From Vulcanimicrobiota bacterium (GTDB lineage: Bacteria; Vulcanimicrobiota; Vulcanimicrobiia; Vulcanimicrobiales; Vulcanimicrobiaceae), in the NCBI GenBank assembly GCA_003140215.1, contig PLJL01000001.1, positions 391,283-455,282 on the forward strand: a stretch of DNA of 64,000 bases, given 5' to 3'. Shown here in pieces: positions 1,004-24,524 of this stretch (positions are counted from its first letter, which is position 1; the number at the start of each line of letters is the position of its first letter). The position numbers and the translations under genes were made by a program. The notes under the pieces were generated by a model that saw only the letters and a program-made list of their open reading frames with translations, had not been told where the DNA came from and ran no database searches.

Positions 1004-1282
1004 ATGTCCAATGGGAGCGTGACGGACGAGACGATCCTGGCCGGGTTCAAGAGCCTGCACGAGGCGATGGCCGAAGGCTTCGATCGGCTCGATCGCAAGA
1101 TCGAGTATGAGATCCGCACGCTGCGTGGCGAGATGAACGAGCGTTTTGCGGCGGTCGATCGCCGTTTCGCGGAATTCGAAGCGCGGATGATGCGACGCTT
1201 CGACGAGCGCGACGTGCGGTTGGACGATCACGAGCGCCGGATCGTGGCGCTCGAAGCACCTGGCCGAGCGCAACCGGCCTAG
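1004..1282 (+). CDS. Small predicted coiled-coil protein
   Basis: A 92-residue protein of unknown function. From about residue 15 to 85 it is very rich in E, R, D and K with hydrophobics at heptad spacing (LHEAMAEGFDRLDRKIE and onward), so a long single coiled coil is predicted. There is no signal peptide or membrane segment. The start is the ATG 25 bp after the lipA stop. It converges on the M16-family gene and the two stop codons overlap inside one CTAG (1279-1282). Homology cannot be judged for such a low-complexity sequence. Confidence 0.6.
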   Translation: MSNGSVTDETILAGFKSLHEAMAEGFDRLDRKIEYEIRTLRGEMNERFAAVDRRFAEFEARMMRRFDERDVRLDDHERRIVALEAPGRAQPA

Positions 1283-2739
1283 CGCGTCAGCTGTTCACCC
1301 GCGAGGTCGAGGTCGGTCGCCTTCACGACCAGCACGTCGGGATGCGACTTGCGCACCGCGTCGAGGAACTTCGACGCGTCGCCGACGAGCACGATCGTGG
1401 GCGGCCGTGCGTACGAAGCGCTCGCGAAGCGGGTGACCGCGGCCGGATCGACCGCGGTCAAGGCCGCGTTGCTCACACCCAGCGCGCCGAGCGGCAGGCC
1501 GTTGAACGCGTTCGCAGTGACCGCGCGAACCAGCCCGCCGGTGGTCTCGATCGAGGACGCGATGCCGCCCAGCAACGACGTCCGCCGCGTGCCCAGCTCG
1601 TCGGCCGCGACCGGTGCGGTACCGAGTGACGCCAGCGTCGTGAGCATCACGTCGAGGGCCTCGGCGGCCTTGGCGTGCTCGACCAGCGTGTTCGCCGACG
1701 TTCCCGCGGCGTAGCGTCCGCTGAGGTAGGTCGAGCTCGCGCCGTACGACAGCCCGCGCTTGACGCGAATCTCCTCGTTGAGCCGTCCGGAGTAGCCCGA
1801 CAGCACGGAGTTGGCGATCGAGGCCGCTGCCCAATCGGACGCGGTACGCAGCGGCGCCGGGCGCGCGACGGCGATCGCCGTGCGACCCGCCGCCGGTTGA
1901 TCGACGACAATCACGCGCGCCGTCGCCGGCGCGGCGGTCGGGAGCGGCGCGGGTGCCGGACCCGACGCGGTCCACGCTCCGAACAGGTGCTGCGCCAGCG
2001 CGAACGCTTGGGCGGGCGTAAGATCGCCCCCGATGGTCAGCACCGAGCCCGACGGCCGGTAGTACGCGCGATGGTACGCGACGACGGCGTCGCGCTGCGT
2101 CGCGGCGACGGATCGCACGGTTCCGGAGATGGGCCGGCCGAACGGGTTCGCGAAGAGCGCGCGTTGCACGACGAGGTTGGCGAGGTTGGAAGGCGAGCCG
2201 TTGGCCAGCAAGATGCCGCTGGATGCCCGCTGCTTCGCGAGCGTGAGCTCGTCCGGCGCGAACGCGGGCTCGGCCACCGCCTCGGCCATGATCGCCAGCG
2301 CGGCGGGAAACCTCGCCGTCAGCGCATCGGTGGTGATGTCGGTGCGCTCGGTCGTCGCGCTCGCGTTCAACGTCGCGCCCAGCGCGTCGAGCGCGACCGC
2401 GACCTCCTTGGCGGAACGGTGCCCCATCCCGCGCGAAATCAGCGACGCGGTCAGCGCGGCGAGACCCGGCGCGCCGTCGGGATCGGCGGCCGCCCCGCCC
2501 GGCAGCGCCAAGTCCGCCGCGACGAGCGCGCTGCCGGGCACCCGTACCGCGAGGACGCGCAGCCCGTTCGGCAGCGTCGTTTGGACCGGCGTCGGATACC
2601 GCACCGCCCGCTGCGGCCGCGGCGGCGGCGGCGTCGACTTCGCGCCGGGGACGATCGGGCTTTCCTGCGCGCGCGCGGCACCCGCGCCCACGAGCGCGGC
2701 GGTCACGAGCAGGACCGCCGACAGATGCGTACGCTTCAC
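1279..2739 (-). CDS. M16-family peptidase-like protein, non-catalytic partner
   Basis: A 486-residue exported protein of the insulinase/pitrilysin fold. The N terminus is a signal peptide (Lys-rich start, Leu/Val/Ala core, AARAQ end). The region matching the zinc site reads GLAALTASLISRG, so the HxxEH motif is missing and the subunit should be inactive. The downstream arginine- and glycine-rich half (SGYSGRLNEEIR) is typical of the family. The GTG start overlaps the stop of the active M16 gene by GTGA (2736-2739). Such active/inactive pairs are known to form heterodimers, so the two proteins probably form one periplasmic protease. Confidence 0.88.
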   Translation of the reverse strand: MKRTHLSAVLLVTAALVGAGAARAQESPIVPGAKSTPPPPRPQRAVRYPTPVQTTLPNGLRVLAVRVPGSALVAADLALPGGAAADPDGAPGLAALTASLISRGMGHRSAKEVAVALDALGATLNASATTERTDITTDALTARFPAALAIMAEAVAEPAFAPDELTLAKQRASSGILLANGSPSNLANLVVQRALFANPFGRPISGTVRSVAATQRDAVVAYHRAYYRPSGSVLTIGGDLTPAQAFALAQHLFGAWTASGPAPAPLPTAAPATARVIVVDQPAAGRTAIAVARPAPLRTASDWAAASIANSVLSGYSGRLNEEIRVKRGLSYGASSTYLSGRYAAGTSANTLVEHAKAAEALDVMLTTLASLGTAPVAADELGTRRTSLLGGIASSIETTGGLVRAVTANAFNGLPLGALGVSNAALTAVDPAAVTRFASASYARPPTIVLVGDASKFLDAVRKSHPDVLVVKATDLDLAGEQLTR

Positions 2740-4103
2740 TTCGAGGCTCCCGGTCCGTTGGGCGTGGCGGTTTCGTACGCCACGACGGTGCTGTTGCTCG
2801 CGATGAGGTACTTGCGCGCGACGCGCTGCACGTCGGCGGCGGTCACGCGCTCGTACTCCGACGTGGCGCGGTTCACGATCCCCGGATCGCCGTCGATGAC
2901 CGCGGCGCGCACCAGCGCCTGCGCGACGTTGTCATGCGTCTGCAGCGCGCGCGCGAGCGTCGCGATCGCTTGGGTCCTGGCCTTGTCGAGCTCGGCGGCC
3001 GAAACGCGCTCGTCGCGCATCCTCGCGACCTCCTTGTCGAGCGCCGCTTCGAGATCGCCCGTCGTCTTGCCGGCGTTCGCGATGGCAAACACGTAGAAGA
3101 GCCCGGGCTGCTGGCGCGTGTCGGCGTTGGCGACCACCTGCGATGCGACCCCACCGTCGATCAGCGCGACGCGCAGCCGCGAGCTGGTCCCGCGGCCCAG
3201 GAGCGCCTCGACGATGTTGAGCGCGGGCGTGTCGGCGGAGCGCTGGGCCGGGATGTGGTATGCGATCACCGTCGCCGGGAGCGGCGCGTTCTTGCTGGTG
3301 TACGTGACTCGCCGTTGCGTGGTCTGCGCCGGCTCGACGATCCTGACGCGCGGAATCGGCGCCGCCGGCCTCTTGAGCGGGCCGAAATACTTCTGGACCC
3401 ACGCGAACGCCTGCTTGGGATCGAGATCGCCGACGAGCACCAGCGTTGCGTTGTCGGGGCGATAGAAGCTCGTGTGGAACGCGATGACGTCGGACAACTT
3501 CGCGGCGTTGAGCTGCTCGGGGTTCCCGATGACGCCGAATTGGTACGGATGCCGCGTGTACGCGGCGTTAACGAGCTGGAACAGCATCCCGTACGGCTGG
3601 GCGAGCACGGACTGGTCGTACTCGCCGATGACGACCTTGCGCTCGGTCACGAAGTTCGGCTCGTCGACGGTCAGGTTTGCCATGCGGTCGGCCTCGGCCC
3701 ACAGCAGCCGCTCGAGATGGTTCGACGGAACGATCTCATAGTAGTTCGTGATGTCTTCGGCGGTGTAGGCATTGTTGTAGCCGCCGACGTCTTCGGTGAA
3801 GCGGTCCATCGACTCGGGCTTCACGTTGACGGTGCCCTTGAACATCAAGTGCTCGAAGAGGTGCGCAAACCCGGATTTTCCGGGTGGATCGCTCTTTCCG
3901 CCGACGTTGTAGCCGATGTCGATGGCTACGGTGGGCGTGCGATGATCCTCGACCACGACCACGTGGAGCCCGTTGGGCAGAACGCGCTGCGTGAAGACGA
4001 TCGGCGCCACCGCGATCGGTGCTTGCTGCGCGCGCGCGGAGCACGGCGCGACCAAGCCCGTAGACAGGGCGGCGAGCGCGAGCCCGCGAGCAAACCTATG
4101 CAT
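2736..4103 (-). CDS. M16-family zinc metallopeptidase, catalytic subunit
   Basis: Exported M16B-type metallopeptidase. Numbered from the ATG at 4103, a signal peptide (MHRFARGLALAALS through SARAQ) is followed by the inverted zinc motif H81-LFE-H85. About 75 residues later comes the downstream glutamate region (ERKVVIGE) that supplies the third zinc ligand. The frame stays open to 4196, but that extension is Arg-rich and would bury the signal peptide, so I prefer 4103 (455 residues). It is coupled to the inactive M16 partner by a 4-base overlap. The role is probably peptide turnover in the envelope; the substrate is unknown. Confidence 0.93.
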   Translation of the reverse strand: MHRFARGLALAALSTGLVAPCSARAQQAPIAVAPIVFTQRVLPNGLHVVVVEDHRTPTVAIDIGYNVGGKSDPPGKSGFAHLFEHLMFKGTVNVKPESMDRFTEDVGGYNNAYTAEDITNYYEIVPSNHLERLLWAEADRMANLTVDEPNFVTERKVVIGEYDQSVLAQPYGMLFQLVNAAYTRHPYQFGVIGNPEQLNAAKLSDVIAFHTSFYRPDNATLVLVGDLDPKQAFAWVQKYFGPLKRPAAPIPRVRIVEPAQTTQRRVTYTSKNAPLPATVIAYHIPAQRSADTPALNIVEALLGRGTSSRLRVALIDGGVASQVVANADTRQQPGLFYVFAIANAGKTTGDLEAALDKEVARMRDERVSAAELDKARTQAIATLARALQTHDNVAQALVRAAVIDGDPGIVNRATSEYERVTAADVQRVARKYLIASNSTVVAYETATPNGPGASK

Positions 4104-4204
4104 TCTTGCGTTGTGCGCGATCGGCGAGCGCCGAACCTCGCGCCGCCGCCCGCGGAGCGACCGCCATCGTTCGGTTGGAGCCTCGGCCGGGTACACTACC
4201 GCCG

Positions 4205-4582
4205 ATGGAGACGACGGTCGACGAACTGCGCGCGCTGGCCGATGCCGGGGCGACGATCCTCAACGTCGGAGCGCGCGGCGGCCGCCGCGAGATCCGCGGC
4301 GCCGTCCGGTATCGCCCCCACGATCTGCTCACCCCCGAGCGCCTGGCGATACCGCTCGCGTCGGACAAGCCGGTCGTCCTCTACGACGAAGACGGTGCCG
4401 GCGACCTGACCTCGCGGATCGCCGACAAGCTACGCGCCGAAGGCTTTGCCGACGTGCGCGTCCTGGGGGGCGGCTTCGCCGCCTGGGAACGCGCCGGCGG
4501 CGTGACCCAGGAGTCCTCGATCGAGCAGGTCGTGCCGCCGATGAGCTCATCCGAGGTCCAAGCGCTGGACCGCCGGATCTAG
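4205..4582 (+). CDS. Rhodanese-like domain protein lacking the catalytic cysteine
   Basis: Single rhodanese-fold protein of 125 residues. The family frame is clear: an N-terminal V-DELRAL helix, the ILNVGARG strand, and the GFADVRVLGGGFAAWERAG segment near the C terminus. The active-site loop after VVLY, where active sulfurtransferases carry Cys, reads D61-EDGAGDLTSR. It therefore cannot act as a persulfide carrier and is more likely a binding or sensory domain. ATG at 4205. The gene is divergent from the M16 pair and converges on doxX with stops sharing one CTAG (4579-4582). Confidence 0.8.
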   Translation: METTVDELRALADAGATILNVGARGGRREIRGAVRYRPHDLLTPERLAIPLASDKPVVLYDEDGAGDLTSRIADKLRAEGFADVRVLGGGFAAWERAGGVTQESSIEQVVPPMSSSEVQALDRRI

Positions 4583-5103
4583 GGAAGCGCTTCGGCTGCA
4601 GGCGCGGCAGCGGCCGGCTTGCGCCGCGCCGCCATGTTGAGCAGCCCGCCTACGATCCCGAGACCGACGAACAGCCAGGCGAGCGCAGGCGTCCAGACGG
4701 CGCTCCAGCCCAGCGCGGCGTCGAGGCTGTACGCCCCGTAGCCGACGAACGCGAAGGTGAAGCCGACAGCCAGGTACAGGAGCGCCAGTTCGACGCCCTT
4801 CGGCGCGAAGAAGCCGTTGCCGATGTGAATCGCTAGGATCGCCACGACCATCACGGAGATGATCAGCATCGAGCCGATCGGTCCGCCGAGGCCCAGCGCG
4901 AGCAGCACGCCGCCCAGCAGTTCGCCCGTACCGGCGGCGCCGGCAAAGAGCTTACCGGGCTTGAACCCAACGGTTTCGAAGAATCCGCCGGTACCGGCAA
5001 GGCCATAGCCCCCGAACCAGCCGAAGAGTTTCTGGGCCCCGTGCGCGGCAAAGCCGAGCCCGACGACGAGGCGAACGATGAGGAGTGGGAGCGCGATTTC
5101 CAT
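4579..5103 (-). CDS. DoxX-family membrane protein
   Basis: A 174-residue integral membrane protein with four predicted helices. It has the DoxX signature near the N terminus (RLVVGLGFAAHGAQKLFGWFGG) and Gly-rich membrane segments after it. Family members act with quinone or thiol redox enzymes; in Bacillus, CatD (DoxX) is controlled by the HxlR-type CatR in response to catechol and quinones. The same pairing occurs here, because the divergent neighbour is an HxlR regulator. The start is the ATG at 5103; an open extension upstream to 5157 runs through the promoter and is unlikely. The C-terminal tail is Ala/Pro-rich. Confidence 0.9.
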   Translation of the reverse strand: MEIALPLLIVRLVVGLGFAAHGAQKLFGWFGGYGLAGTGGFFETVGFKPGKLFAGAAGTGELLGGVLLALGLGGPIGSMLIISVMVVAILAIHIGNGFFAPKGVELALLYLAVGFTFAFVGYGAYSLDAALGWSAVWTPALAWLFVGLGIVGGLLNMAARRKPAAAAPAAEALP

Positions 5104-5119
5104 GAGCGGTCTTTCGTTG

Positions 5120-5176
5120 TACTTACGGAGAGTAGGTAGCCAACATCCTATCACCATGCTATACTTACGTCAAGTA
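5120..5176. promoter_or_regulatory. Divergent doxX/hxlR control region with two inverted-repeat operators
   Basis: Two 15-bp sites share the pattern TACTT-N5-AAGTA. Site 2 (5162-5176) is the perfect palindrome TACTTACGTCAAGTA. Site 1 (5120-5134) is TACTTACGGAGAGTA with one mismatch. Their centres are 42 bp apart, about four helical turns. On the minus strand a strong doxX promoter is visible: TTGACG (5168-5173), 17-bp spacer, TAGGAT (5145-5150). Site 2 covers its -35 box and site 1 lies just past its start point. A plus-strand -10 (TATACT, 5160-5165) for hxlR overlaps site 2. Repression of both genes by HxlR is inferred. Confidence 0.75.
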
Positions 5177-5193
5177 GCCTCCAGAGATTTCGT

Positions 5194-5562
5194 ATGAGCC
5201 TTCGCAGCGCCCCCGCCCCGGTCCAGACCCCTGCCGCCGACGACCATGCCGGCGAGATCAGCCCGTTCTGCCCCCGCTTCCAGTACGCCATCGAGCTGAT
5301 CGGCCGGCGCTGGATCGGGGCGATTCTGCGCGTCCTCGGGGCTGGGCCGGCGCGTTTCAACGAGATCCTGACCGCCATCCCCGGTCTCTCCGACCGGCTG
5401 CTGACCGAGCGCCTGCGCGAGCTTGAACGCGAGGGCCTGGTGACCCGCACGGTCGCCCAAGAGCGCCCCGTCCGTGTCACCTACGAGCTGACGGACTGCG
5501 CTCGCAGCCTGAGCGCGATCATTTGCTCGATCGCCACCTGGTCCGAACGCTGGGTCGAGTAG
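5194..5562 (+). CDS. HxlR/MarR-like winged-helix transcriptional regulator
   Basis: A 122-residue HxlR-family DNA-binding protein. The family opening is present (FCPRFQYAIELIGRRWIGAIL), including the conserved N-terminal cysteine that in YodB and CatR senses quinones or other electrophiles. The winged helix follows (RFNEILTAIPGLSDRLLTERLRELE). It is divergent from doxX across a region with two matching palindromes, so it probably represses doxX and itself until the cysteine is modified. The acetyltransferase frame downstream overlaps its 3' end. Confidence 0.92.
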   Translation: MSLRSAPAPVQTPAADDHAGEISPFCPRFQYAIELIGRRWIGAILRVLGAGPARFNEILTAIPGLSDRLLTERLRELEREGLVTRTVAQERPVRVTYELTDCARSLSAIICSIATWSERWVE

Positions 5563-6017
5563 AACCCGCCGCCTCGGGTTCGCGGATCGCGGGCGCACGG
5601 GTCACGCTACGCCCGGCGAGCGCGTCCGATCTCGATCTGCTGACCGCCTGGTTCGGCGATCCCGAGTTCGTGCGCTGGTGGGGCGGCGAGCCGAAAACGC
5701 GCGACGATGTCGCCGCGGACTACCTCGGGCGCAATTCCGGCAACGAGATCGTCTTCGCGTTCATCGTCCTGCACCAATCGCAGCCGATCGGCTACATTCA
5801 CGCTTGGAGCGACGAACCAAACGTCGGCGGGATCGACATCGTTTTGATTCCCGCGGCGCAAAACCGAGGGCTCGGACCGGATGCCGTTCGGACCCTAGCC
5901 CACTACTGCCGAACTGCGCTACAGTGGACCGAAGTCACGATCGACCCGGCGATCGACAACCACCGTGCGATAAGAGCCTTCGAAAAAGCCGGCTTCTCGC
6001 CCCATCAAATCCATTGA
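5523..6017 (+). CDS. GNAT-family N-acetyltransferase
   Basis: Acetyltransferase of the RimJ/RimL or aminoglycoside 6'-acetyltransferase-like type. The fold is clear from VTLRPASASDLDLLTAW, a central beta strand run (IVFAFIVLHQSQPIGYI), an acetyl-CoA loop QNRGLGPDAVR, and the closing IDNHRAIRAFEKAGF. The first usable start is a TTG at 5523 inside the hxlR 3' end, giving 164 residues. No better start exists before the conserved part, so coupling to hxlR is likely. The substrate is unknown; resistance to an amino-bearing toxin or metabolite would fit the regulator beside it. Confidence 0.85.
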   Translation: MLDRHLVRTLGRVEPAASGSRIAGARVTLRPASASDLDLLTAWFGDPEFVRWWGGEPKTRDDVAADYLGRNSGNEIVFAFIVLHQSQPIGYIHAWSDEPNVGGIDIVLIPAAQNRGLGPDAVRTLAHYCRTALQWTEVTIDPAIDNHRAIRAFEKAGFSPHQIH

Positions 6018-6074
6018 AGACGAACGCGACGGTACGCTTCTCCTCATGAAGTTCCGCGAATAGCGATGGTGGCG

Positions 6075-6120
6075 CACCCTTCGACAAGCTCACGCGCACG
6101 TTGACTACGTCAGGGTGACA
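6075..6120. repeat. Split copy of a dispersed palindromic repeat
   Basis: CACCCTTCGACAAGCTCA (6075-6092) and CAGGGTGACA (6111-6120) look like the two halves of a short palindromic repeat (ACCCTTCGACAAGCTCAGGGT type) separated by 18 extra bases. A related sequence with TCGAAGGGTCGAAGGGTCA lies at 58299-58335. It sits in the gap between the acetyltransferase and gdhA stops, where it could also form a weak hairpin. Repeat status is inferred from two related occurrences only. Confidence 0.4.
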
Positions 6121-6185
6121 AAAGTCAGACCATGTCGCGAGCCCGTCGCTGTGATGCGGTCGCGCCCGCGACTAGACGGATCGAT

Positions 6186-7463
6186 CTAAGCGTAGACTCC
6201 GCGGAGTTTTAGCGATTTGACGACGCGATCGATTGCCACCATGTACGCGGCGGTGCGATAGCTGATTCCGCGCGACTCGGCGATCTCGCGCAACACGGTG
6301 AAATTGTCGAGCAGCACTTCTTTGAGGCGTTCGTTGACCTCGGATTCGCGCCAGAAGTAGCCTTGCCGGTCCTGCACCCACTCGAAGTACGAGACCGTCA
6401 CGCCCCCGGCGTTGGCCATGATGTCGGGGATCACCACGATCCCGTTCTTGGCGAAGATGTGGTCGGCTTCGGGCGTCGTCGGCCCGTTTGCGCCCTCGAC
6501 GATGAGCTTGGCCTTGATGCGCGACGCGTTGTCGACGTTGAGCACCTTCTCCAGCGCCGCCGGGACGAGCACGTCGCAATCGATCTCGAGCATCGCCTGA
6601 TTTGACATCTTTTCGCCGCCGCGATACCCGTCGAGCGAGTGGTGCTCTTGCGCGTAGGCCATGGCGCCCTCGACGTCGAGCCCCTGCTCGTTGACGTAGG
6701 CGCCGGTGACGTCGGAGATTCCGATCACCTTGCAGCCCGCATCGGAGAACATTCGGCCGGCGATGCCGCCCACGTTGCCGAAACCTTGCACGACCACGCG
6801 GGCGCCCTTGGGATCGATCCCCAGTCGTGCCATCTCATCGAGGGCCACGATGGAGACGCCCCGCCCGGTGGCCTCGACGCGTCCGCGCGATCCGCCGATC
6901 TCGAGCGGTTTGCCGGTCACGACGCCCGGCGTATTCTGCCGAACGTGCATCGAGTAAGTGTCCATGATCCACGCCATGTGCTGCGGCGTCGTGTTGACGT
7001 CGGGCGCCGGAACATCTTTGTCAGGCCCGATGACTTCGACGAGCTCCGCGGCGTAGCGGCGCGTGATGCGCTCGATCTCGGCCATCGACAAGGTGTTGGG
7101 ATCGCAGGTGACGCCGCCCTTACCGCCGCCGAACGGCAAGTCGACGACGGCGCACTTCCAGGTCATCCAGAACGCCAAAGCGGTGACCTCGTCCAGGGTG
7201 ACGCCGGGATGGAAGCGGATCCCGCCCTTGGCCGGCCCGCGCGCGAAGTTGTACTGAACGCGGTACCCGGTGTAGACCTCGATGCCGCCGTTGTCACGCT
7301 GGAACGGGATGGAAAAGATGATCTGCCGCGACGGGTGCGTCAGGATCGCCTTGATCCCGGGATCGAGGTTGAGCAGGGCCGCCGCCTCGTTGAAGTAGGC
7401 GATCGCATCCCCGAAGACGCTGACCTCGCGTACCGCGGTCGTGCCCGGAACGGCTGTGGACAT
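6186..7463 (-). CDS. gdhA: Glutamate dehydrogenase
   Basis: NAD(P)-dependent glutamate dehydrogenase interconverting glutamate with 2-oxoglutarate and ammonium, 425 residues, the length of the hexameric bacterial type. The substrate-binding lysines K79 (GPAKGG) and K103 (MTWKCA), the catalytic K115 (GGGKGG) and the PAPDVNT motif are in order. The Rossmann motif VQGFGNVG follows, then the C-terminal VEGANGPTTPEAD. An AGGAGG site lies about 14 bp before the ATG. It stands alone between a convergent acetyltransferase and ychF. Coenzyme specificity cannot be assigned with confidence. Confidence 0.96.
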   Translation of the reverse strand: MSTAVPGTTAVREVSVFGDAIAYFNEAAALLNLDPGIKAILTHPSRQIIFSIPFQRDNGGIEVYTGYRVQYNFARGPAKGGIRFHPGVTLDEVTALAFWMTWKCAVVDLPFGGGKGGVTCDPNTLSMAEIERITRRYAAELVEVIGPDKDVPAPDVNTTPQHMAWIMDTYSMHVRQNTPGVVTGKPLEIGGSRGRVEATGRGVSIVALDEMARLGIDPKGARVVVQGFGNVGGIAGRMFSDAGCKVIGISDVTGAYVNEQGLDVEGAMAYAQEHHSLDGYRGGEKMSNQAMLEIDCDVLVPAALEKVLNVDNASRIKAKLIVEGANGPTTPEADHIFAKNGIVVIPDIMANAGGVTVSYFEWVQDRQGYFWRESEVNERLKEVLLDNFTVLREIAESRGISYRTAAYMVAIDRVVKSLKLRGVYA

Positions 7464-7642
7464 CGAGCAATGGCCTCCTGAGCCGTCCCGCTCCTTTAGG
7501 ACATTGGGAGCAAACCCCTGGCTTCCGATTCGCCATTAGGCGAATCATGCCGAGCGAACGGTGGACGTAGTGTTCCCCCGCGCCGGGAGCAAGGCCGCTC
7601 GCTTGGTACCGAAGGGCGCCGTTCGCGCGGCCCCCGGAGCCT

Positions 7643-8737
7643 TCAGACGTTGAAGCGGAACTCGACCACGTCGCCTTCCTGCATTCCGTAGTCCTTGCCC
7701 TCGGATCGCAGCTTGCCCGCGGCGCGGATCGCGTCCATCGTGCGATACGCCACGTAGTCGACGTACGACACGATCTCGGCGCGGATGAAACCGCGCTCGA
7801 TGTCGGTGTGGATCTTGCCGGCCGCCTGGGGCGCCCGGGTGCCCTTTTCGATCGTCCAGGCGCGCGTCTCTTTGGGGCCGGTGGTGAGAAACGTCATCAA
7901 GCCGAGCAGGTCGTAGGCCTCGACGATGAGCCGGTCCAGCCCGCCCGACGTGATCCCGTAGTCGGCGCGGAACATCTGCACGTCCTCATCGCTCATCCCC
8001 GCGAACTCCGACTCGATCTTGCCGTTGAACGCGATCGCGCGACTGTTCTCGGCCTTCGCGTAGTCGAACACCGCGCGCGCCATCGGGCCGGGGTCGTTGA
8101 TCTGCGCTTCGTCGACGTTGGCGACGTACAGCATCGGCTTCGCCGTCAACAGGAACGCGTCGCGCGCCAGCTCCGCCTCGGGCGAGTCGTGCGGGAACGC
8201 GCGTGCCGGCTTGCTCGCCTCGAGCGCGGCGATCAGCCGATCGAGCGCCCCGAGCTTGGGCGCCTCTTTCGGGTTGACGCGAACCTCACGGCCCAGCTTG
8301 TCGCGGCGGCGCTGGAGCGTCGCGAGATCGGCCAGTGCCATCTCGATCCCGACGATCTCGATGTCGCGCAACGGATCCGGCGAGCCCTCGACGTGCGAAA
8401 CGTTGGAATCTTCGAAGCAGCGCACCACCATCGCCACGGCATCGGTTTCCCGGATGTGCGAGAGGAATGCGTTGCCCAGGCCTTGGCCGCTCGACGCGCC
8501 CCGCACCAGCCCCGCGATGTCGACGAAGCGCATCGTCGTCGGGACGATCTGTTCGGAACGGCTCAGCTCGGCCAGGGCACCGAGCCGAGGGTCGGGGACG
8601 GGGACCTCGCCGATGTTGGGTTCGATCGTGGCGAACGGGTAGTTGGCCGCAAGCGCCTGCGCGGACCGCGTCAGCGCGTTGAAGATGGTCGACTTGCCGA
8701 CGTTGGGAAGTCCGACGATACCGCACGACAATGCCAC
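7643..8737 (-). CDS. ychF: Redox-regulated P-loop ATPase YchF/OLA1
   Basis: Obg-family ATPase of 364 residues, the normal YchF length. The P-loop GLPNVGKST is at residues 9-17, G3 is DIAGLVRGAS, and the nucleotide-specificity motif reads NVDE. This NxxE form replaces the GTP-specific NKxD and explains why the family prefers ATP. The C-terminal TGS domain contains AWTIEKGTRAPQAAGKIH. The start is a GTG at 8737 (VALSCGIVG). The frame stays open far upstream, but that extension is the antisense of the divergent bifunctional-nuclease gene. Confidence 0.96.
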   Translation of the reverse strand: MALSCGIVGLPNVGKSTIFNALTRSAQALAANYPFATIEPNIGEVPVPDPRLGALAELSRSEQIVPTTMRFVDIAGLVRGASSGQGLGNAFLSHIRETDAVAMVVRCFEDSNVSHVEGSPDPLRDIEIVGIEMALADLATLQRRRDKLGREVRVNPKEAPKLGALDRLIAALEASKPARAFPHDSPEAELARDAFLLTAKPMLYVANVDEAQINDPGPMARAVFDYAKAENSRAIAFNGKIESEFAGMSDEDVQMFRADYGITSGGLDRLIVEAYDLLGLMTFLTTGPKETRAWTIEKGTRAPQAAGKIHTDIERGFIRAEIVSYVDYVAYRTMDAIRAAGKLRSEGKDYGMQEGDVVEFRFNV

Positions 8738-8827
8738 GGAGCGCGTTCGTACGCGACACCGTACGAATCGACCTCGCCATGGCTTACCCCGGAGGAGTTG
8801 CCCCCGAGGCCCCCGGAGTACCATGCT

Positions 8828-10296: not shown

Positions 10297-10308
10297 GCGG
10301 AGTCGGCC

Positions 10309-11031: not shown

Positions 11032-11040
11032 CATACGATC

Positions 11041-16158: not shown

Positions 16159-16181
16159 GCTCACCTCCGTCAGGAACGAGC

Positions 16182-16226: not shown

Positions 16227-16254
16227 TGCGCCGCGCTAGGTGATGCGCCGCAGG

Positions 16255-17454
16255 CTAGCGATGCCGCTCGAGCCGAGAATGAACTCGCCCATCGAGCGAC
16301 GCATAAGCGAGTGACCCTGCAAGGTTGATTTGGACGAACGGGTAGAACGGAGACATCGATTGTCGACAGGGCCGCCATACCAGCGTAGGATGGAGCGTGT
16401 AGCGCCGGTCCGGAATCACCAAAACATCCAAATTGTGCGTCTGGCTTGCATACCGGGCCAGCGCGGCTTTGGCGAAGTCGTACATCTGAGATGGCCCAGG
16501 AACGTCGGACCGCGGGGCCTGCAAGCTCAGGAACCGCCCATCGGCGCACCCGACGCGGACGTTAGCTACAGGCTCGTGACCTCGCCGCAGCATCACGAGG
16601 TAGTAAGGCTCCGAGCTTCCGAGTTGACCGTTACCGGGCCGCTCGGCGATCGTGTAGACATCCTCGGGGCGTGCTTCCACACCAGCAACCGCTGCCGCCA
16701 AGGGTGAACCGGGATCGCGAAGACCGTACCGCTCGATGCCGGCCATCGCTGCCACGCACGCTTCAGGCTTGCTGAGCACGGAGCCAGCCGGTACGACCTG
16801 CGGCGGAACGTCGCTGATGGATCCACGGAGCGGGCCCGAGGCTTGAGCCCCCCGACGGATCGATACGAACGTCCCTCGGCGCGACGGCGAACGCCAGTAA
16901 AAGTTCAGCCACTCATACATGGTGACGAATGTATTTCCGCTTCCGTAGTCGGTGCTGCACCGGGGTGGAAAAATGCCGCAGGTATCGTCGATTTGGTGCG
17001 GCCTTGCGATAACGCGTCCGGATTCCGGACATGGGAACCGCGGATTCTGCGGCTCAGGATCGTGGATGAAAAACCCCATGACGCCGCTGGATGCGCTGCT
17101 CGGATCACCGTCGTAGGAAACACCGGTGACCGCGATCCAGTGTCCGCCATCGAGCACCAGAGCGGGTACGGCGGGTCCGAGCTCAGCAATCCCGCCGGAA
17201 ATGCGGAGAACCCCGTCTCGCGCAGTGAGATCGCTGCAAACACCGAAATCGGCTCCGCCGGATGCCGGATTCAAATTCAGGCAAAGTTCCTCGGGAGTCG
17301 TGTCGGGGTGCTTGATACTCGCCTGTCGGCGCATGGTGCGCTGGTCACCGAGGTCACGTCCCAAAGACCCAAGCACCATTTGCGCGACGGCCTGGCCGCA
17401 GAAGTCGTAACCGTCTTGCTGATGATACGGCGCACCGGAGTAAACGACGGGCAT
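16255..17454 (-). CDS. C39-like papain-fold cysteine peptidase
   Basis: A 399-residue protein whose N-terminal 160 residues match a stand-alone C39-like peptidase. It has the oxyanion/catalytic segment QDGYDFCGQAVAQMVLGSLG, a histidine strand GGHWIAVTGVSYDGD, and a third catalytic acid in FFIHDPEPQNPRF. There is no ABC-transporter fusion as in bacteriocin exporters and no clear signal peptide. The C-terminal 120 residues, ending in SPFYPFVQINLAG, form an unrecognised domain. Start at ATG 17454 behind a G-rich GGGGGAG; an open extension to 17538 enters the divergent promoter. It lies 96 bp upstream of the barrel gene, so cotranscription is possible. Confidence 0.7.
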   Translation of the reverse strand: MPVVYSGAPYHQQDGYDFCGQAVAQMVLGSLGRDLGDQRTMRRQASIKHPDTTPEELCLNLNPASGGADFGVCSDLTARDGVLRISGGIAELGPAVPALVLDGGHWIAVTGVSYDGDPSSASSGVMGFFIHDPEPQNPRFPCPESGRVIARPHQIDDTCGIFPPRCSTDYGSGNTFVTMYEWLNFYWRSPSRRGTFVSIRRGAQASGPLRGSISDVPPQVVPAGSVLSKPEACVAAMAGIERYGLRDPGSPLAAAVAGVEARPEDVYTIAERPGNGQLGSSEPYYLVMLRRGHEPVANVRVGCADGRFLSLQAPRSDVPGPSQMYDFAKAALARYASQTHNLDVLVIPDRRYTLHPTLVWRPCRQSMSPFYPFVQINLAGSLAYASLDGRVHSRLERHR

Positions 17455-17567
17455 ATCTCCCCCAATCCGACGAATGTGAGCGGGCAATAAAAACGGTGAT
17501 CGAACGGCCGGCGTCGTAGAACGCCCCACCTGCGACAAGCCTCCACCGGGCGGGAGCGATCGAGATC

Positions 17568-20384
17568 ATGGTCGACTCGCGTACTCAAAACTTCGCGAGG
17601 TCCCTCGCCGCTGCGGCGGTGGATGTCCTGGTGCTCGAGGCGCCGCCGGGATATGGGAAATCGTCGCTCGCCCGCGTGTATGCGTCGGCACTTGGACCGG
17701 CCTACGAATGCTGGCTTTCGGCGGAAAGCGATGAGGCGTCCAGGCTGATCCTCGACGCGCTCGTCGGGACCGAGGGATTGCGTGGCGCGCGATTCGCCGT
17801 CGATCGGCTGGCGCGCCGCGGCGGCAGCGCCGCTGCGCACGCCAGGGAAACCCTTCGTCGGGAGTGGGTGTCCGCCGCGACCGAAGATGTTCTCGTGCTT
17901 CACGACTTCTCCGGAGCGCTCGCGACGCGCGCCGGCGCAGACCTGCTGGGCGAACTTCTCGTAACGAAGCCCGCCAAGCGCCGCCTGGTCCTGTCGATCC
18001 GCAAACCGTTGCCTCCCGGTACGGTAGGAAATCTCCCGATCCGCGGCACGACGACGCTCACGCGCAGTGACCTCGCACTGACGCTGCCGGAAGTCGGCGA
18101 CATCGCGGGACGCGCCGGACTCCCGCGCCCGAAGGCTGCCGAGATCTACTCCCTGACACGCGGTTGGCCCCTGGTAACCCGCTTGCTCGTGCAACAACTG
18201 CAGGCCGACTCCCAGGACCCCGTACTCGATGCCGTGCGCACGCTGCCCCACGACACGATGCTGGCATTCGCGGCGCATCGATTGATCGCGCAGTTGGACG
18301 ACCGTTTGCGCGACACGCTCGCCGTGGCCTCGTTCTTTGCCGAGGCCCATTACCTCGATCTTATTCGCATCCTCGGTCCCGAGTGCGACGACGCGGTGTT
18401 CGCTCGAATGTCGGTGCTGCCGTTCGTGTCCCAGGAAGGGGACGGCGTCGCGGTGCACTGCGAGGTCGCGCGACTCTTGCGCGACCGTTTTGCGTCCATC
18501 GTCGAGCCGCTGTACGAGCGAACGTTGGACGTCTTGTGCCGAGCAGGTCGTCACCTCGTCGCCGCGCGCATGGCGCTCGACCGTGGCGATGGGCTGCGAG
18601 CAGCCGAAGTCATCGACAGCGCGCCACCGTTTACCACCCTTCCGGTTCCGCTCGGTGAATATGAAAGAATCATCGAACGGGTGGAACCGCGCCTCATCAC
18701 ACGCTTTCCGAACCTTTGGATCGCGACGATCCCATATCGCTCGTTCTCGATCGACCCCGCGACATACATCCGCGAAGCGGAAACGGTTTATTTCTGCTTG
18801 CCGGCAGGAACCGATCCCGATCAGCGAGCGGCCGCGTTGATGATGCTTGCCTCGGCGTATGCGAATGTCGGTCGGTCCCGCGACGCCGAGGTGCTGCTCG
18901 CCGAGGCGTTCGAAGGATTTGCAAGCGCCGATGGCTCCCCACGTGCGTCGCTGCTCAACTTTTTCGCATCGCTGCGTGGCATCGAAGGGCGATTCACCGA
19001 AGCGCGTGGCCTTGCGGAGCAGGCCGCCCGCGCCTCTCGCGACACCTTCGGTCAGAATCAAACGTTGCACTACATCGATGCGCACGAGGCCGCGTTTCGC
19101 GGCCGCCAAGATAGGCTGGTAGTCATTCTGGATGAGCTCATGCACCGGCGGGCTCGTGCCGATCCGCCGCTCTATCTGGCGTACGTCGCAGAAAATGGGG
19201 CGTTCTTCTCGTGGGCCAATGGCGACGACGCGGCGTTCGAGCGGTATCAGACGGCCTTCGAGGACTCGATTACTCCGGCGATAGAGCACGCGCTGGCCAC
19301 GCTGATCGATGCCGCGCGCGGGCGCGCTGCGCCGTCGGATGACGAGCGTGTGTGGCCCTTGATCGCGGCATTCGCAAATCTGTATTGGATGGCAAACGCG
19401 CCGACCCATGAGGTCGCGGTTCGGGCCGCGAGCGCCGCCGTCCGAGCCGCCGACCAGCGGGGGGCACCCTATACTCAGACACTCGCACACGTCGCGCTGT
19501 ACGTGCTCGATGAGGCCACGCGCGCCCAGCAGGCTGCGGCACTGATGGAGATCGTGCGCAACGTTGAGAGCGAGGAGTTGCGCCAAGCAGTCCGGGGAGT
19601 GATCGAAGGCGGCCCGGCGGGGATGCTGGAGCCTTTCGTTCGGCGACGCGTGCGGCGGCAACGGACACGTTCGGGCCCGCGCCTCGTGGTGGAGCTGCTG
19701 GCCGGCCGCGTCACGGTCGATGGCGCGGCGGCACGGTTGCGGGAAAAGGAGTTCGAGCTCGTAGCCTTGTTGGCTTCGACACGTGGTGCGCTTTCGCGCG
19801 AGCAGATCGGCGAGGCGCTGTGGGAACATCTCGATCCCGATGAGTGGTCGAATAACCTCAAGGTCACGCTCTATCGCGTCCGAAAGGCGCTCACGACGCG
19901 CGACGTCACGGTCACGGAGGGAACTCGCTACCGACTGGCTCCAAGCATCGACGTGGACCTGCGGCGAGGCGAAGCGCTCCTTCGCGATCTCGGCCCGACC
20001 ATTCGTGACGAAGCCGCGCGAGCGACGTTGGCCGACGTCTTGCGGTCGTTTCAGGACGGTGTCCTGGAACGCTACGAGCGCTTCGGATGGTCGCATACCC
20101 TGGTTGCGCGCTTGAACGACCTGGCTTGCGGCTGCGGCCTGTCCTTGGCGTCGGACGCGCTCGAGCGCGACGCGGTCGATGATGCGGTCGAGTATGCGTC
20201 GCGTGTCCGTGATCTCGACCCGCTCAATGAAAAGGCCTGCGGGATCACCATCCGCGCGCTGAAGACGCGCGGGGCCGACGACGCGGCCCGGCGCGAGTTC
20301 CAGCGCTATGCGGAGGCGCTTGAACGCGAGTTCGCGGCCGTGCCGTCTGCGGCGCTCTTGGAACTGGTAGTCCATGGCGCGTGA
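17568..20384 (+). CDS. AAA-ATPase / winged-helix / BTAD (SARP-type) transcriptional regulator
   Basis: A 938-residue regulator. An N-terminal STAND/MalT-like ATPase has P-loop A25-PPGYGKSS and a Walker B-like VLVLHDF near 110. A long helical-repeat region (about 330-660) probably senses a ligand or partner. It is followed by an OmpR-like winged helix (about 690-790; REKEFELVALLAS, NNLKVTLYRVRKAL) and a C-terminal BTAD domain with DLDPLNEKACGITIRAL. Usual SARPs put the DNA-binding and BTAD domains first, so this is a reversed order. Divergent from the C39-like gene and convergent with the 220-residue gene; it probably controls both flanks. ATG behind GGGAGCG. Confidence 0.85.
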   Translation: MVDSRTQNFARSLAAAAVDVLVLEAPPGYGKSSLARVYASALGPAYECWLSAESDEASRLILDALVGTEGLRGARFAVDRLARRGGSAAAHARETLRREWVSAATEDVLVLHDFSGALATRAGADLLGELLVTKPAKRRLVLSIRKPLPPGTVGNLPIRGTTTLTRSDLALTLPEVGDIAGRAGLPRPKAAEIYSLTRGWPLVTRLLVQQLQADSQDPVLDAVRTLPHDTMLAFAAHRLIAQLDDRLRDTLAVASFFAEAHYLDLIRILGPECDDAVFARMSVLPFVSQEGDGVAVHCEVARLLRDRFASIVEPLYERTLDVLCRAGRHLVAARMALDRGDGLRAAEVIDSAPPFTTLPVPLGEYERIIERVEPRLITRFPNLWIATIPYRSFSIDPATYIREAETVYFCLPAGTDPDQRAAALMMLASAYANVGRSRDAEVLLAEAFEGFASADGSPRASLLNFFASLRGIEGRFTEARGLAEQAARASRDTFGQNQTLHYIDAHEAAFRGRQDRLVVILDELMHRRARADPPLYLAYVAENGAFFSWANGDDAAFERYQTAFEDSITPAIEHALATLIDAARGRAAPSDDERVWPLIAAFANLYWMANAPTHEVAVRAASAAVRAADQRGAPYTQTLAHVALYVLDEATRAQQAAALMEIVRNVESEELRQAVRGVIEGGPAGMLEPFVRRRVRRQRTRSGPRLVVELLAGRVTVDGAAARLREKEFELVALLASTRGALSREQIGEALWEHLDPDEWSNNLKVTLYRVRKALTTRDVTVTEGTRYRLAPSIDVDLRRGEALLRDLGPTIRDEAARATLADVLRSFQDGVLERYERFGWSHTLVARLNDLACGCGLSLASDALERDAVDDAVEYASRVRDLDPLNEKACGITIRALKTRGADDAARREFQRYAEALEREFAAVPSAALLELVVHGA

Positions 20385-20390
20385 CCGGTT

Positions 20391-21053
20391 CTACTCCCCA
20401 CCGTTGCCGGAGCCGTCGTCAATCACAAGCCCCATCGGACCAAGCTCGCCGCCGCCATCTTCGGGATCGGGCGGAGGAGGTAGGATGAGCGTGACGTCGC
20501 CGTTCGCCCTGATGGGCGTGAGATCGTCGATCTGAATCCGGTCAGGGTCTACGTTGTCGATGAACATGATTCGGAACGGCGCATCGGGCTCGGAGCGGTC
20601 CCGGAAGGCGACGTAGGTGAACTCGCCCATGTCCGCCTCTTGCAAGCCGGTTCGTCCCGTTTTCTTTTCGAGCCGCGCCTTCATAGAGACAATCGGTCGG
20701 GTGCCTTGCTTCAGGACGAGCGTGACAATGGAGAACGTGCTGTCGAAGCGGGGCTCGAGGATGACGATGTTCGCCTCGAACGTGAACGGTCCGCGAAAGT
20801 CCACCGTGCCCCCGCCGTCCGTTAGGTCAGCGACGACAGACGCACGCTCGAACACTCCCGTGACCGGCTCTTTCGGGCCGGGATCCTCGTCGACGACGTG
20901 CACGACTAGCAGGTTCGCCGTGGCCTCAGCAAAGCAGAAGAGGCGTCTGCCAAAATAGGGAATCGCCGGGGCGAAGGCGACCGCGTCGTTGCCCAGCGGA
21001 ACAAATTTTGCAAAGCCGATCGACGCGTTCGAGGTGGACGTAATGCTAGGCAA
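20391..21053 (-). CDS. Unknown 220-residue protein coupled to the radical SAM gene, Gly/Asp/Pro-rich tail
   Basis: No family recognised. Residues 1-185 look like a beta-rich soluble domain with a single cysteine (RRLFCFAEA). The last 30 residues form a low-complexity tail: a PPPPDPEDGGG run, a short hydrophobic stretch (MGLVIDD), then GSGNGGE. The start is a TTG at 21053 preceded by GAGGAGA and overlapping the radical SAM stop by 8 bases, so it is translated with that enzyme. The frame continues upstream, but inside the enzyme gene. A modified protein substrate or partner of the radical SAM enzyme is the obvious hypothesis; nothing proves it. Confidence 0.7.
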   Translation of the reverse strand: MPSITSTSNASIGFAKFVPLGNDAVAFAPAIPYFGRRLFCFAEATANLLVVHVVDEDPGPKEPVTGVFERASVVADLTDGGGTVDFRGPFTFEANIVILEPRFDSTFSIVTLVLKQGTRPIVSMKARLEKKTGRTGLQEADMGEFTYVAFRDRSEPDAPFRIMFIDNVDPDRIQIDDLTPIRANGDVTLILPPPPDPEDGGGELGPMGLVIDDGSGNGGE

Positions 21054-22110
21054 GGCTCTTCTCCTCGTAGGATGCAGCTTTGAGTGATCGTGGCGCGTCC
21101 ACGTGCTTGGCTTGGAGTTGCACGAATTGCTCAGCGACGATTGAAGCAACCTCGGCTCCGTATCGTCCGACGATCTCCATTGCGCGATCGTCTCGTTGCA
21201 GGCGGGTGCAGGCGCTGCAGATGGAAGCCGATTGGGGCAAGGTGTATCCTGGGACATATCGTGCGACGAACGCTGCGACCCCGGCGGGTCCGGACACGTG
21301 CAGCCACATCTTCAGCAATTCATTCGGGCTCGAGTCCAGGACGCTATCGAGAGTGCGTTCCGAGACCGAACCGATGCCCAAATGTGGCAGCTGTTCTGAA
21401 GGGAACCCGCAGCACGCGATCAGCTTTTGATCGGACGTGACCGAGATGACGTCCAGAACTTGGGCACAACGGCCGAGCCCACGCGAACCAACGTCGTCAA
21501 GGTACGCGTCGTGAGAAAGGTCCGCCAGCCCGCGTCCTCCAGCATCCACTATCCAGGGATCGCGTGAGAGATGCACCGACCCTGACGCGACGAGATCGGC
21601 CAACGATTCGAAGAGAACCGCATCGTCGAACGTCGATTGATCGCAAGCCTCTATGGAAATGCGCGTGAGGATCCCGCTCTCAGCCGCGGCGCGCGCTGCG
21701 GCGATCACACGATCCACGCTAACGAAACGTTGGTGAAATGATCCGGTCGACAGCATCATCTCATCGAGACCGCGCTCGCGGATCGCCGCCACGCGGTCGC
21801 GCGCAACGCGTGGGCTGACCGCCCAGTAACCGTTGGTAATGACGCGCGTGATAAATCCTAGCCGGGATGCGTGACCAACTAGCTCGTCGAGGTCGCGGCC
21901 AAGCAGGAAGCACTCGCCTCCGCTAAACCCAATCCGTTCCAGTGACGGAATGCGGGTTGCCTCGTCGATTAATCGATGAATTCGCTCGACGGGGATGGCG
22001 TCGGTTTCTCGCGGCCCAGCGCCGACCGAGCAGTGATCGCAAGCCGCCGGGCAACGGCGGGTCGTGAGGATTGATAGTATGCGAGGCCGCACGAACATCG
22101 CGGTTGGCAT
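21046..22110 (-). CDS. Radical SAM protein with partial SPASM/twitch-like C terminus
   Basis: A 354-residue radical SAM enzyme. The 4Fe-4S motif is RRCPAACDHCSVG (CxxxCxxC) near residue 20. GFSGGECFLL gives the SAM-binding GGE, ITNGYW is a strand motif, and an unusual MMLSTGSFHQRFV occurs near residue 120. The C-terminal third holds further cysteines: GRCAQV, IACCGFPSE and SICSACTR. These suggest an auxiliary cluster of the kind used in peptide and protein modification. The ATG at 22110 has AGAGAGG directly against it; ATG 22098 (MFVRPRIL) would have better spacing. It is cotranslated with the 220-residue protein. Confidence 0.87.
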   Translation of the reverse strand: MPTAMFVRPRILSILTTRRCPAACDHCSVGAGPRETDAIPVERIHRLIDEATRIPSLERIGFSGGECFLLGRDLDELVGHASRLGFITRVITNGYWAVSPRVARDRVAAIRERGLDEMMLSTGSFHQRFVSVDRVIAAARAAAESGILTRISIEACDQSTFDDAVLFESLADLVASGSVHLSRDPWIVDAGGRGLADLSHDAYLDDVGSRGLGRCAQVLDVISVTSDQKLIACCGFPSEQLPHLGIGSVSERTLDSVLDSSPNELLKMWLHVSGPAGVAAFVARYVPGYTLPQSASICSACTRLQRDDRAMEIVGRYGAEVASIVAEQFVQLQAKHVDAPRSLKAASYEEKSLA

Positions 22111-22237
22111 CCTCTCTGATAGGCACGAGCGAGCTAACGCTTATCTTGCTACTAAGAGCGACTACGCCTCCCTCTGGAGCGATCTTTTCACGGCTCGGTT
22201 AATAGCCGGTGACACAAGACGGCCGCCCGACACCAGT

Positions 22238-22251
22238 CGAGCGGCCGCTCG
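22238..22251. repeat. 14-bp perfect palindrome upstream of the radical SAM gene
   Basis: CGAGCGGCCGCTCG is a perfect palindrome in the 173-bp gap between the R3H ATPase stop and the radical SAM start. No T run follows on either strand, so it is not a standard terminator. It may be an operator for the radical SAM operon or a chance G+C palindrome. Confidence 0.35.
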
Positions 22252-22283
22252 GAAGGCCCTCACGTCCGACAGGCGTTGCCGTT

Positions 22284-23864
22284 CTAGACGTCAGGCCCCT
22301 TGAAAATTCGCACCCGTCTGTTCGGCTCCAGCCCCGTCGAGCGCGACTGTAGGCGGTAGCGCTCGGCGAGCTGATGCTGCATCCGCCGGATGTACGAGGT
22401 CTGCGGCGTCAACTCGATCGCGCGGCTGTCGAGCAGCACTTGGTAGACCGCTTCCTCCGCCTCGCGCATCGCGATCTCTTCGACGTCGAGCGACGGCAGG
22501 TTGAAGACGTCCTTGAGCGCGTTTTGAATCTGCGTCGTGGTGTTCGTCTTGATCGAATAGATCGGGACGTTCTCGGCGGCGATCTGCTTGAGCCGGTCCG
22601 ACTCCTTGCGCTCGAGCGTCTTGAGCGTGAGGACCACGTCGGCATCGTCCCACTTGCGCGCGATCGACGCGTGCACGCGCAGGTTGTGCACGGCGCGCTC
22701 GATCTTGTTGCGTGACACGCCGTAGGGGAAGATCATCAGCGGCCTGGCATCTTCGGGGATCGACTCGCCGGTCGCACCGAAAAGCGCCATCTCGTCGTCG
22801 CGCGACTGCTGCGGCAGCGCGCGCACCTTGTCGGGGATCGCCTCGGGGTTGGCATGCTGCAGGATGTCGATGGCGCCGCCGGCGGTGCGTTGACGCACCT
22901 CGGGTTGCGGCTGGTACCCCCGCAGCAGCGCGTCGACGACCTCACCGACGTTTTGGTGGATCGCCAGCCGATCGCGGTCTTGGATCTCGACCACCACATC
23001 GAACGTCGGCGGCTGCTTGCGCTCGAGCACGGTCTTGCGGGTGCCGCGGCGGCGCGCCTCCTCGTCGGAGAGCGTCACGGCGCTGATCCCGCCCAGCAGA
23101 TCCGAGAGCGTCGGATTCATCAGCAAGTTCTCGAGCGTCTGGCCGTGCGCGGTTCCGATCAGTTGCACGCCGCGCTCGGCGATGGTGCGCGCGGCGAACG
23201 CCTCCGCCTCGGTCCCCATCTCGTCGATCACGATGACCTGCGGCATGTGGTTCTCCACCGCCTCGATCATCACGTTGTGCTGCAGGTGCGTATCGGGAAC
23301 CGGCATGCGGCGCGAGTGTCCGATCCCGGGGTGCGGAACGTCGCCGTCGCCGGCGATCTCGTTGGAGGTGTCGACGATGACGACGCGTTTGCGGTCCTCG
23401 GCGAGCACGCGCGCGCATTCGCGCAGCATCGTGGTCTTGCCGACGCCGGGCCGCCCCAACAAACAGATCGATTTGCCGCTACGGATCACGTCGAGCACGA
23501 TGTCGATCGTCCCGTACACCGCCCGCCCGACACGACAGGTGAGCCCGACGATGCGGCCGGTGCGATTGCGAATCGCGCTGATGCGGTGCAGCGTCTGCTC
23601 GATCCCGGCCCGATTGTCGCCGCCGAACGGCGATAGCCGCGAAGCGACGTGAACGATGTCTTCCGACGTCACGGGCGTGTCGCTCAAGAACACGAAATCG
23701 TCTTCGAAACGCGCCTCGGGCGGACGGCCGAGGTCGAGCACCACTTCGATGACGTGGTCGAGGTTCGGAAGACGGACGAGCGGTTGGCGGATCGGGAGGG
23801 GGAAGATGTCCAGGAGCTGCGTGAGCTCCCAATTCGGCACGAAGGACTCGGCGTTAACGGCCAA
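22284..23864 (-). CDS. R3H-domain AAA ATPase (Ycf45/SpoIIIAA-like)
   Basis: A 526-residue ATPase with Walker A G137-RPGVGKTT, Walker B VIVIDEMG near 210 and the AHGQTLENLLMNPTLSDLLGG segment typical of the family. A C-terminal R3H-type nucleic-acid-binding region follows (KWDDADVVLTLK, KESDRLKQIAAENVPIYSIK). Members occur in cyanobacteria, chloroplasts (Ycf45) and Firmicutes; the biochemical role is not established. The start is a TTG at 23864 with GGAG five bases upstream. It marks the right edge of the low-G+C island. Confidence 0.9.
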   Translation of the reverse strand: MAVNAESFVPNWELTQLLDIFPLPIRQPLVRLPNLDHVIEVVLDLGRPPEARFEDDFVFLSDTPVTSEDIVHVASRLSPFGGDNRAGIEQTLHRISAIRNRTGRIVGLTCRVGRAVYGTIDIVLDVIRSGKSICLLGRPGVGKTTMLRECARVLAEDRKRVVIVDTSNEIAGDGDVPHPGIGHSRRMPVPDTHLQHNVMIEAVENHMPQVIVIDEMGTEAEAFAARTIAERGVQLIGTAHGQTLENLLMNPTLSDLLGGISAVTLSDEEARRRGTRKTVLERKQPPTFDVVVEIQDRDRLAIHQNVGEVVDALLRGYQPQPEVRQRTAGGAIDILQHANPEAIPDKVRALPQQSRDDEMALFGATGESIPEDARPLMIFPYGVSRNKIERAVHNLRVHASIARKWDDADVVLTLKTLERKESDRLKQIAAENVPIYSIKTNTTTQIQNALKDVFNLPSLDVEEIAMREAEEAVYQVLLDSRAIELTPQTSYIRRMQHQLAERYRLQSRSTGLEPNRRVRIFKGPDV

Positions 23865-24059
23865 CGTGGCTCCTACTCGACGTCTGTCGATTGTCGATCG
23901 CCGCCGCCCCCATCGCCGGAAGGCCGCGACGGGATAGCGGCTTCCCGCCCGTCTGCCCGTTTACCTGGAACATATGTCACACCAAATACTATCGGCACTC
24001 CGTTCGTTTCGCCCGCGCGGCCGAGAGGAACCGGCGGCTTGGGCCGCCCAGGGACCGGG

Positions 24060-24524
24060 ATGGCGACGCGATACCTCGAGGACTATCCGGTCGGCACCAG
24101 CGCCGAGTTCGGCAACGCACAGGTCACCGAAGCCGAGATTCGCGAGTTCGCCGCACGCTACGACCCGCAACCGTTTCACACCGACCCGGAAGCGGCCAAG
24201 AAGTGGCCGTACGGCGGCTTGATTGCGAGCGGCTGGCACACCGCCGCGATGATGATGCGCATCCTCGTCGATCGCTTCATCGACGGCGAAGCCAGCCTGG
24301 GATCACCGGGCCTGGGCCCGATCCGCTGGAAGCTTCCGGTTCGCCCGGGCGACGTGTTGCGCGTTCGCGCGCGCGTGCTCGACAGCCGCGTATCGCAGAG
24401 CAAACCGGATCGCGGGATGCTCACCTTCGAGGTCGAGGTCATCAATGGGCGCGACGAGGTCGTGATGGTCGTCGAGAACTGGCTGGCGATCCTACGTACG
24501 CGTCCGAAAAGCGGCGTCGCCTAG
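24060..24524 (+). CDS. MaoC-family (R)-specific enoyl-CoA hydratase
   Basis: Single hot-dog domain of 154 residues. The hydratase-2 motif is complete: D35 and H40 in YDPQPFHTDPEAA, followed by the GLIASGWHTAA helix. Such enzymes hydrate trans-2-enoyl-CoA to (R)-3-hydroxyacyl-CoA in fatty-acid, polyhydroxyalkanoate or side-chain breakdown. ATG at 24060. It converges on the nitronate monooxygenase gene with stops in a shared CTAG (24521-24524). No polyhydroxyalkanoate synthase is near. Confidence 0.9.
   Translation: MATRYLEDYPVGTSAEFGNAQVTEAEIREFAARYDPQPFHTDPEAAKKWPYGGLIASGWHTAAMMMRILVDRFIDGEASLGSPGLGPIRWKLPVRPGDVLRVRARVLDSRVSQSKPDRGMLTFEVEVINGRDEVVMVVENWLAILRTRPKSGVA

Follow-up and report, generated by a model that had tools for sequence, protein, structure and literature searches.

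Shared CTAG stop codons at converging genes of a Vulcanimicrobiota bacterium and the insertion sites of an IS5-family element in a same-genus genome

Three pairs of converging genes in a 64,000-nt stretch of DNA from a Vulcanimicrobiota bacterium (contig PLJL01000001.1, positions 391,283 to 455,282; the whole stretch is called the window here) end in one shared CTAG. We consider it very probable that all three are ordinary 4-nt convergent overlaps, which follow from stop-codon geometry and from the usage of TAG. Shared CTAGs of this sort have been described before; what is of some modest interest is found in a same-genus genome, G005, where an IS5-family insertion element sits at convergent stops more often than the supply of its target motif would lead one to expect. 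The assembly that holds the window (G000, the own genome) has 3,884,886 bases in 7 contigs and is 86.68% complete.

The first shared double stop (1279..1282) closes a short coiled-coil-like gene on the plus strand (1019..1282, 87 aa as called from ORF and codon model; its start is uncertain and the ORF opens at 794) and an M16 peptidase gene on the minus strand (1279..2739; PF05193, PF00675). The second (4579..4582) joins a rhodanese-domain gene (4205..4582, plus strand, 125 aa as called; PF00581 and gene call, ORF opening at 4106) to a DoxX-family gene (4579..5157, minus strand, ORF coordinates; PF07681), which the gene caller starts at 5103. At the third (24521..24524), a MaoC-like dehydratase gene (24060..24524, plus strand, 154 aa as called; PF01575 and gene call, ORF opening at 23649) meets a gene for nitronate monooxygenase (NMO; 24521..25489, minus strand, 322 aa; PF03060). 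At each CTAG the plus- and minus-strand ORFs both stop with TAG and overlap by 4 nt, so that all three are 4-nt convergent overlaps, in which the stops of two converging genes share one YTAR. An earlier note on this DNA had described three convergent pairs ending in one CTAG, and the sequence, the ORFs and the gene calls agree with it at all three positions.

Only four tetramers, CTAG, TTAG, CTAA and TTAA (together YTAR), are able to form such an overlap. CTAGs, stop codons and overlaps were counted in an own-genome sample of 864 kb, made up of 40 stretches of 20 kb and the window. It contains 779 called genes and 119 convergent junctions, 17 of which overlap by exactly 4 nt: CTAG occurs at nine, TTAG at four, CTAA at three and TTAA at one (TTAG and CTAA being one tetramer viewed from opposite strands). 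These numbers were compared with a read-in simulation of our own, in which a reading frame is extended, its phase chosen at random, through actual gene tails taken from genes with a co-directional neighbour. Among junctions with offsets between -60 and +30, 17/89 (19.1%) lie at -4 compared with 14-16% in the model (p = 0.23), and the tetramer shares modelled at -4 are 0.56 for CTAG (55-56%), 0.25 for CTAA, 0.14 for TTAG and 0.05 for TTAA. Two same-genus relatives were sampled at 400 kb each; there the -4 class holds 6/31 junctions in G005 (13.3% modelled, p = 0.29) and 4/24 in G008 (11.3% modelled, p = 0.34); CTAG makes up 4/6 of the 4-nt overlaps of G005, where 0.56 was predicted. The window itself is richer in CTAG overlaps than the rest of the sample (3/12 called convergent pairs vs 6/107, p = 0.047 in a post hoc Fisher test without correction), whereas for 4-nt overlaps of any tetramer the figures are 3/12 and 14/107 (p = 0.38).

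That CTAG is rare, as the earlier note had it, is borne out on both scales. The window holds 42 copies compared with a mean of 66.06 in 100 dinucleotide shuffles, every one of which had at least 42, and the 864 kb hold 446 compared with 838 expected from trinucleotides (second-order Markov model; ratio 0.53). The 446 divide into 180 within genes, 166 in intergenic DNA, 91 on one called stop and nine on two convergent stops, so that 100/446 lie on at least one called stop. The note had suggested counting CTAGs and the fraction at convergent stops; in the 864 kb the result is 9/446 on convergent double stops, and 4-nt overlaps at convergent ends are not more frequent than in the chance model. 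Its appeal to compaction also proved unnecessary: the 4-nt overlap is the commonest halt point and the CTAG share follows TAG usage, which calls for no special explanation. The genome has 68% G+C, and TAG closes 269/744 genes with closed stops (36%), TAA 101. C is no commoner before TAG (109/269) than before TGA or TAA (209/475; p = 0.40).

We picture the origin of the overlaps as follows. A gene that loses its stop would read on toward its converging neighbour and would often be halted at the neighbour's own stop, because a C or T (Y) before a terminal TAG or TAA places a stop on the opposite strand as well. In a genome of such G+C content and TAG usage, CTAG would be the commonest of these tetramers, and later drift of the stops would make each overlap lineage-specific. 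As a side effect, CTAG would be concentrated toward gene ends although rare in the genome as a whole, so that a YTAR-specific IS5-family element entering such a genome would often land there, and on landing in a double stop its 4-bp duplication would leave each gene a stop of its own. The geometry, the sample counts, the drift at two junctions and the target sites of the element in one same-genus genome are observed; we infer both the direction of causation in this scheme and its neutrality. Kingsford, Delcher and Salzberg reportedly modelled the offsets of adjacent genes from the places at which stop codons can arise.

The drift is visible at two junctions when ten other genomes of the genus are searched. 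MaoC and NMO genes converge in 7/10 relatives, with offsets of -20, -29, +30, +25, -26, -23 and +1138 and none at -4; rhodanese and DoxX genes converge in 5/10, at +3, -4 (a TTAG), +10, -18 and +62. For the M16 peptidase the best relatives within the genus are 40-44% identical, at most 44%; outside the own genome its coiled-coil partner was matched in only one of the loci retrieved (G007), without an adjoining M16 gene. Judged by the two junctions compared, stops appear to drift, and the shared CTAG would be a passing state of each junction. Two further overlaps in the window deserve mention. The M16 gene is one of two tandem M16-type peptidase genes (1279-4055, minus strand) that overlap each other by 4 nt, and an unmatched gene (27843-28703, plus strand) converges with a gene for a TonB C-terminal-domain protein (28690-29328, minus strand) with an overlap of 14 nt.

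Several results weigh against an explanation by geometry and TAG usage. When overlapping pairs alone are considered, the -4 class exceeds the model in all three sampled genomes: 17/39 vs 0.205 in the own genome (p = 0.001), 6/11 vs 0.191 in G005 (p = 0.009) and 4/7 vs 0.167 in G008 (p = 0.018). Overlaps of more than 4 nt are thus fewer than under neutral read-in, whether through selection or because the gene caller penalises long ones. In G008, CTAG forms only 1/4 of the 4-nt overlaps, where 0.48 was predicted. TAG is also used more often at non-overlapping convergent ends of the own genome (76/143) than at non-overlapping co-directional ends (124/327), and we offer no explanation for this. 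The excess is confined to the own genome among the three sampled (G005, 15/65 vs 41/148; G008, 17/55 vs 44/131). Finally, the gene calls come from a home-made codon model.

The -4 excess among overlapping pairs is also what would be expected had the CTAG double stop been selected as a unit, for example for coupled termination or as a structural signal. A terminator scan of positions 1100-5000 and 24000-25000 adds to this, since it found no terminator-like site near any of the junctions (the one site, 3270-3286, lies away from them; shuffles averaged 1.3 and 0.6), so that the overlapping ends must terminate some other way. Yet CTAG takes close to its neutral share of the -4 overlaps in the own genome, C is not favoured before TAG, and the junction offsets drift among relatives; we therefore regard selection of the unit as highly improbable, and the shared stop has no demonstrable function of its own. 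Still less credible is the notion that faulty gene calls created the three overlaps. The starts are indeed uncertain, and a Pfam scan returned no match for the coiled-coil-like gene, but stop positions do not depend on the choice of start, Pfam supports five of the six genes (M16, rhodanese, DoxX, MaoC and NMO), and the sixth has a homologue in G007 (47% identity over 96 columns).

Whether such sites are used by mobile DNA could be followed in G005, a single-contig genome (68.2% G+C in the sample) with two Photo_RC genes. By inference only, this is probably Vulcanimicrobium alpinus WC8-2, which is described as a phototroph with a gap-free complete genome of 68.4% G+C (PMC9758169). G005 has 32 DDE_Tnp_1 matches, mostly to one element, and the surroundings of 31 places were retrieved for the copy search. 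It yielded 24 full copies, each about 1,317 bp long and 99.1-100% identical to the reference copy, a similarity that suggests recent movement. The element ends in imperfect terminal inverted repeats, CAGCCCCGTGAAAAA and, reversed, CAGGCCAATGAAAAA, and its transposase belongs to the IS5 family (NF033581, 272.8 bits at a cut-off of 140; PF05598 and PF01609 above their cut-offs). A 4-bp target duplication flanks 24/24 full copies and is a YTAR in 23/24: CTAG in twelve, CTAA in eight, TTAG in two and TTAA in one, the remaining one being CTAC.

NF033581 matches occur in 44/149 genomes of the phylum, 13 of them over the cut-off. With 15 scored matches among 43 candidates, G005 leads the genomes listed, of which the others have at most 8. 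We found no second multi-copy YTAR element in the phylum, although copies within other genomes were not compared with each other and a smaller family could be missed. A search of the window's genome (86.68% complete as assembled) with the G005 transposase found no match; the two DDE_Tnp_1 matches there belong to other elements, one of which is a weak NF033581 match below the cut-off. For the own-genome copy at C5:635753, comparison with six loci of G003 and G008 revealed no clean boundary of the element.

For the analysis of insertion sites, 21 independent sites remained after dropping L219, L220 and L210 (context repeat of L202; L210 identical at 116/116 bases). Interrupted copies (L204, L213, L226), diverged elements (L223, L224, L225) and L227, which gave no match, were also left out. 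The null came from the contexts in which these tetramers occur across 800 kb of element-free G005 sequence, in stretches hand-picked after the element positions were known and spread along the contig; seven contrasts were computed and the P values are uncorrected. Insertions lie on a stop codon at 12/21 sites (5.44 expected), at convergent junctions at 10/21 (3.15 expected) and on a stop at a convergent junction at 9/21 (2.06 expected, P = 0.0001), whereas only 4/21 lie within genes (7.86 expected). An earlier null of 400 kb and 22 contexts, L210 included, pointed in the same direction. Of the 18 genes that neighbour the nine convergent sites, 17 were scanned and 14 matched Pfam above the cut-off. 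At 8/9 of these sites the element leaves both called neighbours intact; at L222 one overlapping gene is cut. Literature searches limited to open-access papers turned up no report of such an enrichment at convergent stops.

The enrichment probably reflects mainly the survival of insertions. Convergent 3' ends contain no promoters, nor does a gene in the same direction follow them, and an insertion at such a place should do the least harm; the finding of fewer insertions within genes than YTAR availability predicts fits with purging. It may be argued instead that the IS5-family transposase prefers convergent YTAR stops beyond YTAR itself and beyond what selection leaves behind. When only insertions outside genes are considered, 9/17 still lie on convergent-junction stops (2.55 expected, P = 0.0001) and 10/17 at convergent junctions (4.08 expected, P = 0.0025). 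Nor is the enrichment explained by neighbouring bases: insertion sites favour T at -1 and A at +4, but the convergent-stop share is 26/278 for contexts with neither base, 12/121 with one and 1/11 with both. However, purging is evidently at work in the shortfall within genes, and harm would also be expected from insertions ahead of promoters. The 4-nt double stop itself was hit by only 1/21 independent insertions, and the data come from a single element in a single genome with 21 sites. We consider a site preference of this kind unlikely, if a contender, and survival remains our preferred account. As for the earlier note's proposal that the CTAGs create preferred insertion sites, it is supported to the extent that the G005 element lies at convergent stops beyond YTAR availability; it is not borne out in the window, whose three CTAGs are empty, in a genome where the element's transposase has no match, and nothing shows that they have been used in the past.

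The one insertion exactly inside a 4-nt convergent overlap (L207, L370) separates an Hpt-domain gene of G005 from an NFACT gene; because the tetramer is duplicated, neither of the two loses its stop. In the window's genome the orthologous junction (L373, G000:C4 near 2159924) is an empty CTAG overlap. In all, 8/12 loci had a readable Hpt/NFACT junction, including those of G005 and the own genome; offsets in the other six are +7, +1045, +4, +961, +31 and -8. The 1045-base gap of G001 (L374) contains an Xre/MbcA/ParS antitoxin and a RES-domain gene (a toxin-antitoxin-like pair), and the 961-base gap of G004 (L377) a response regulator with an HD domain. Different DNA thus occupies this junction in three lineages.

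The IS5 motif YTAR comprises exactly the tetramers that can form a 4-nt double stop, and a 4-bp duplication restores both stops. This raises the idea that YTAR specificity together with the 4-bp stagger is a safe-site strategy, steering the element in G+C-rich genomes to gene ends and above all to convergent ones. We think it doubtful. If it were true, insertion at gene ends would cost little and the CTAGs of the window would be vacant landing pads. Short of this, a plausible-looking CTAG pattern is resolved as something that the geometry of stop codons and the usage of TAG would produce. The insertion result links the rarity of CTAG and its location at gene ends with the YTAR target of IS5-family elements, which we had met only separately. 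It also provides a simple way to test how a short target motif can help an insertion sequence to spare its host.

A palindromic repeat, CCTTCGACAAGCTCAGG, was noticed on the way. Repeat-like sequence related to it lies in the MaoC/NMO junctions of G006 (L045) and G010 (L046). Exact copies of the repeat number 10 in the own genome and as many as 119 in G002, which is of the same genus; it is present in 20/60 genomes (reversed control, 0), and a literature search with a 15-base piece of it found no paper. As a marker of convergent junctions the repeat was rejected: both copies in the 864 kb are at co-directional junctions, 0/6 are convergent in the G008 sample (400 kb), and the 800 kb searched in G005 contain no copy. 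Elsewhere in the window (17568-20384, plus strand), a gene encodes a 938-aa regulator whose Trans_reg_C and BTAD domains are C-terminal, preceded by a TPR match below the cut-off; these two domains are usually found at the front of a protein.

Unlike the element-occupied sites of G005, then, the three window CTAGs carry no element. The G005 element itself resembles IS5 of E. coli in its IS5-family transposase, its YTAR 4-bp duplications and the predominance of CTAG, ISfinder data quoted in PMC5493358 listing CTAG 15, CTAA 3 and TTAG 3 among 24 E. coli IS5 targets. For the overlaps the closest comparison is with the survey of Lillo and Krakauer (2007; PMC2174442), in which convergent overlaps jump at a length of 4 and consist of the same four tetramers. 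The share of overlaps that are 4 nt long matches that in other prokaryotes, 17/39 here and 672/1890 in the 58 published species (p = 0.32; the latter obtained by subtraction from Tables 2 and 3 of PMC2174442). With respect to the tail-to-tail overlaps tabulated there, those described here have the same length and the same tetramers and share both stops in the same way. There is no difference in kind; CTAG is the leading tetramer here because TAG makes up 36% of stops.

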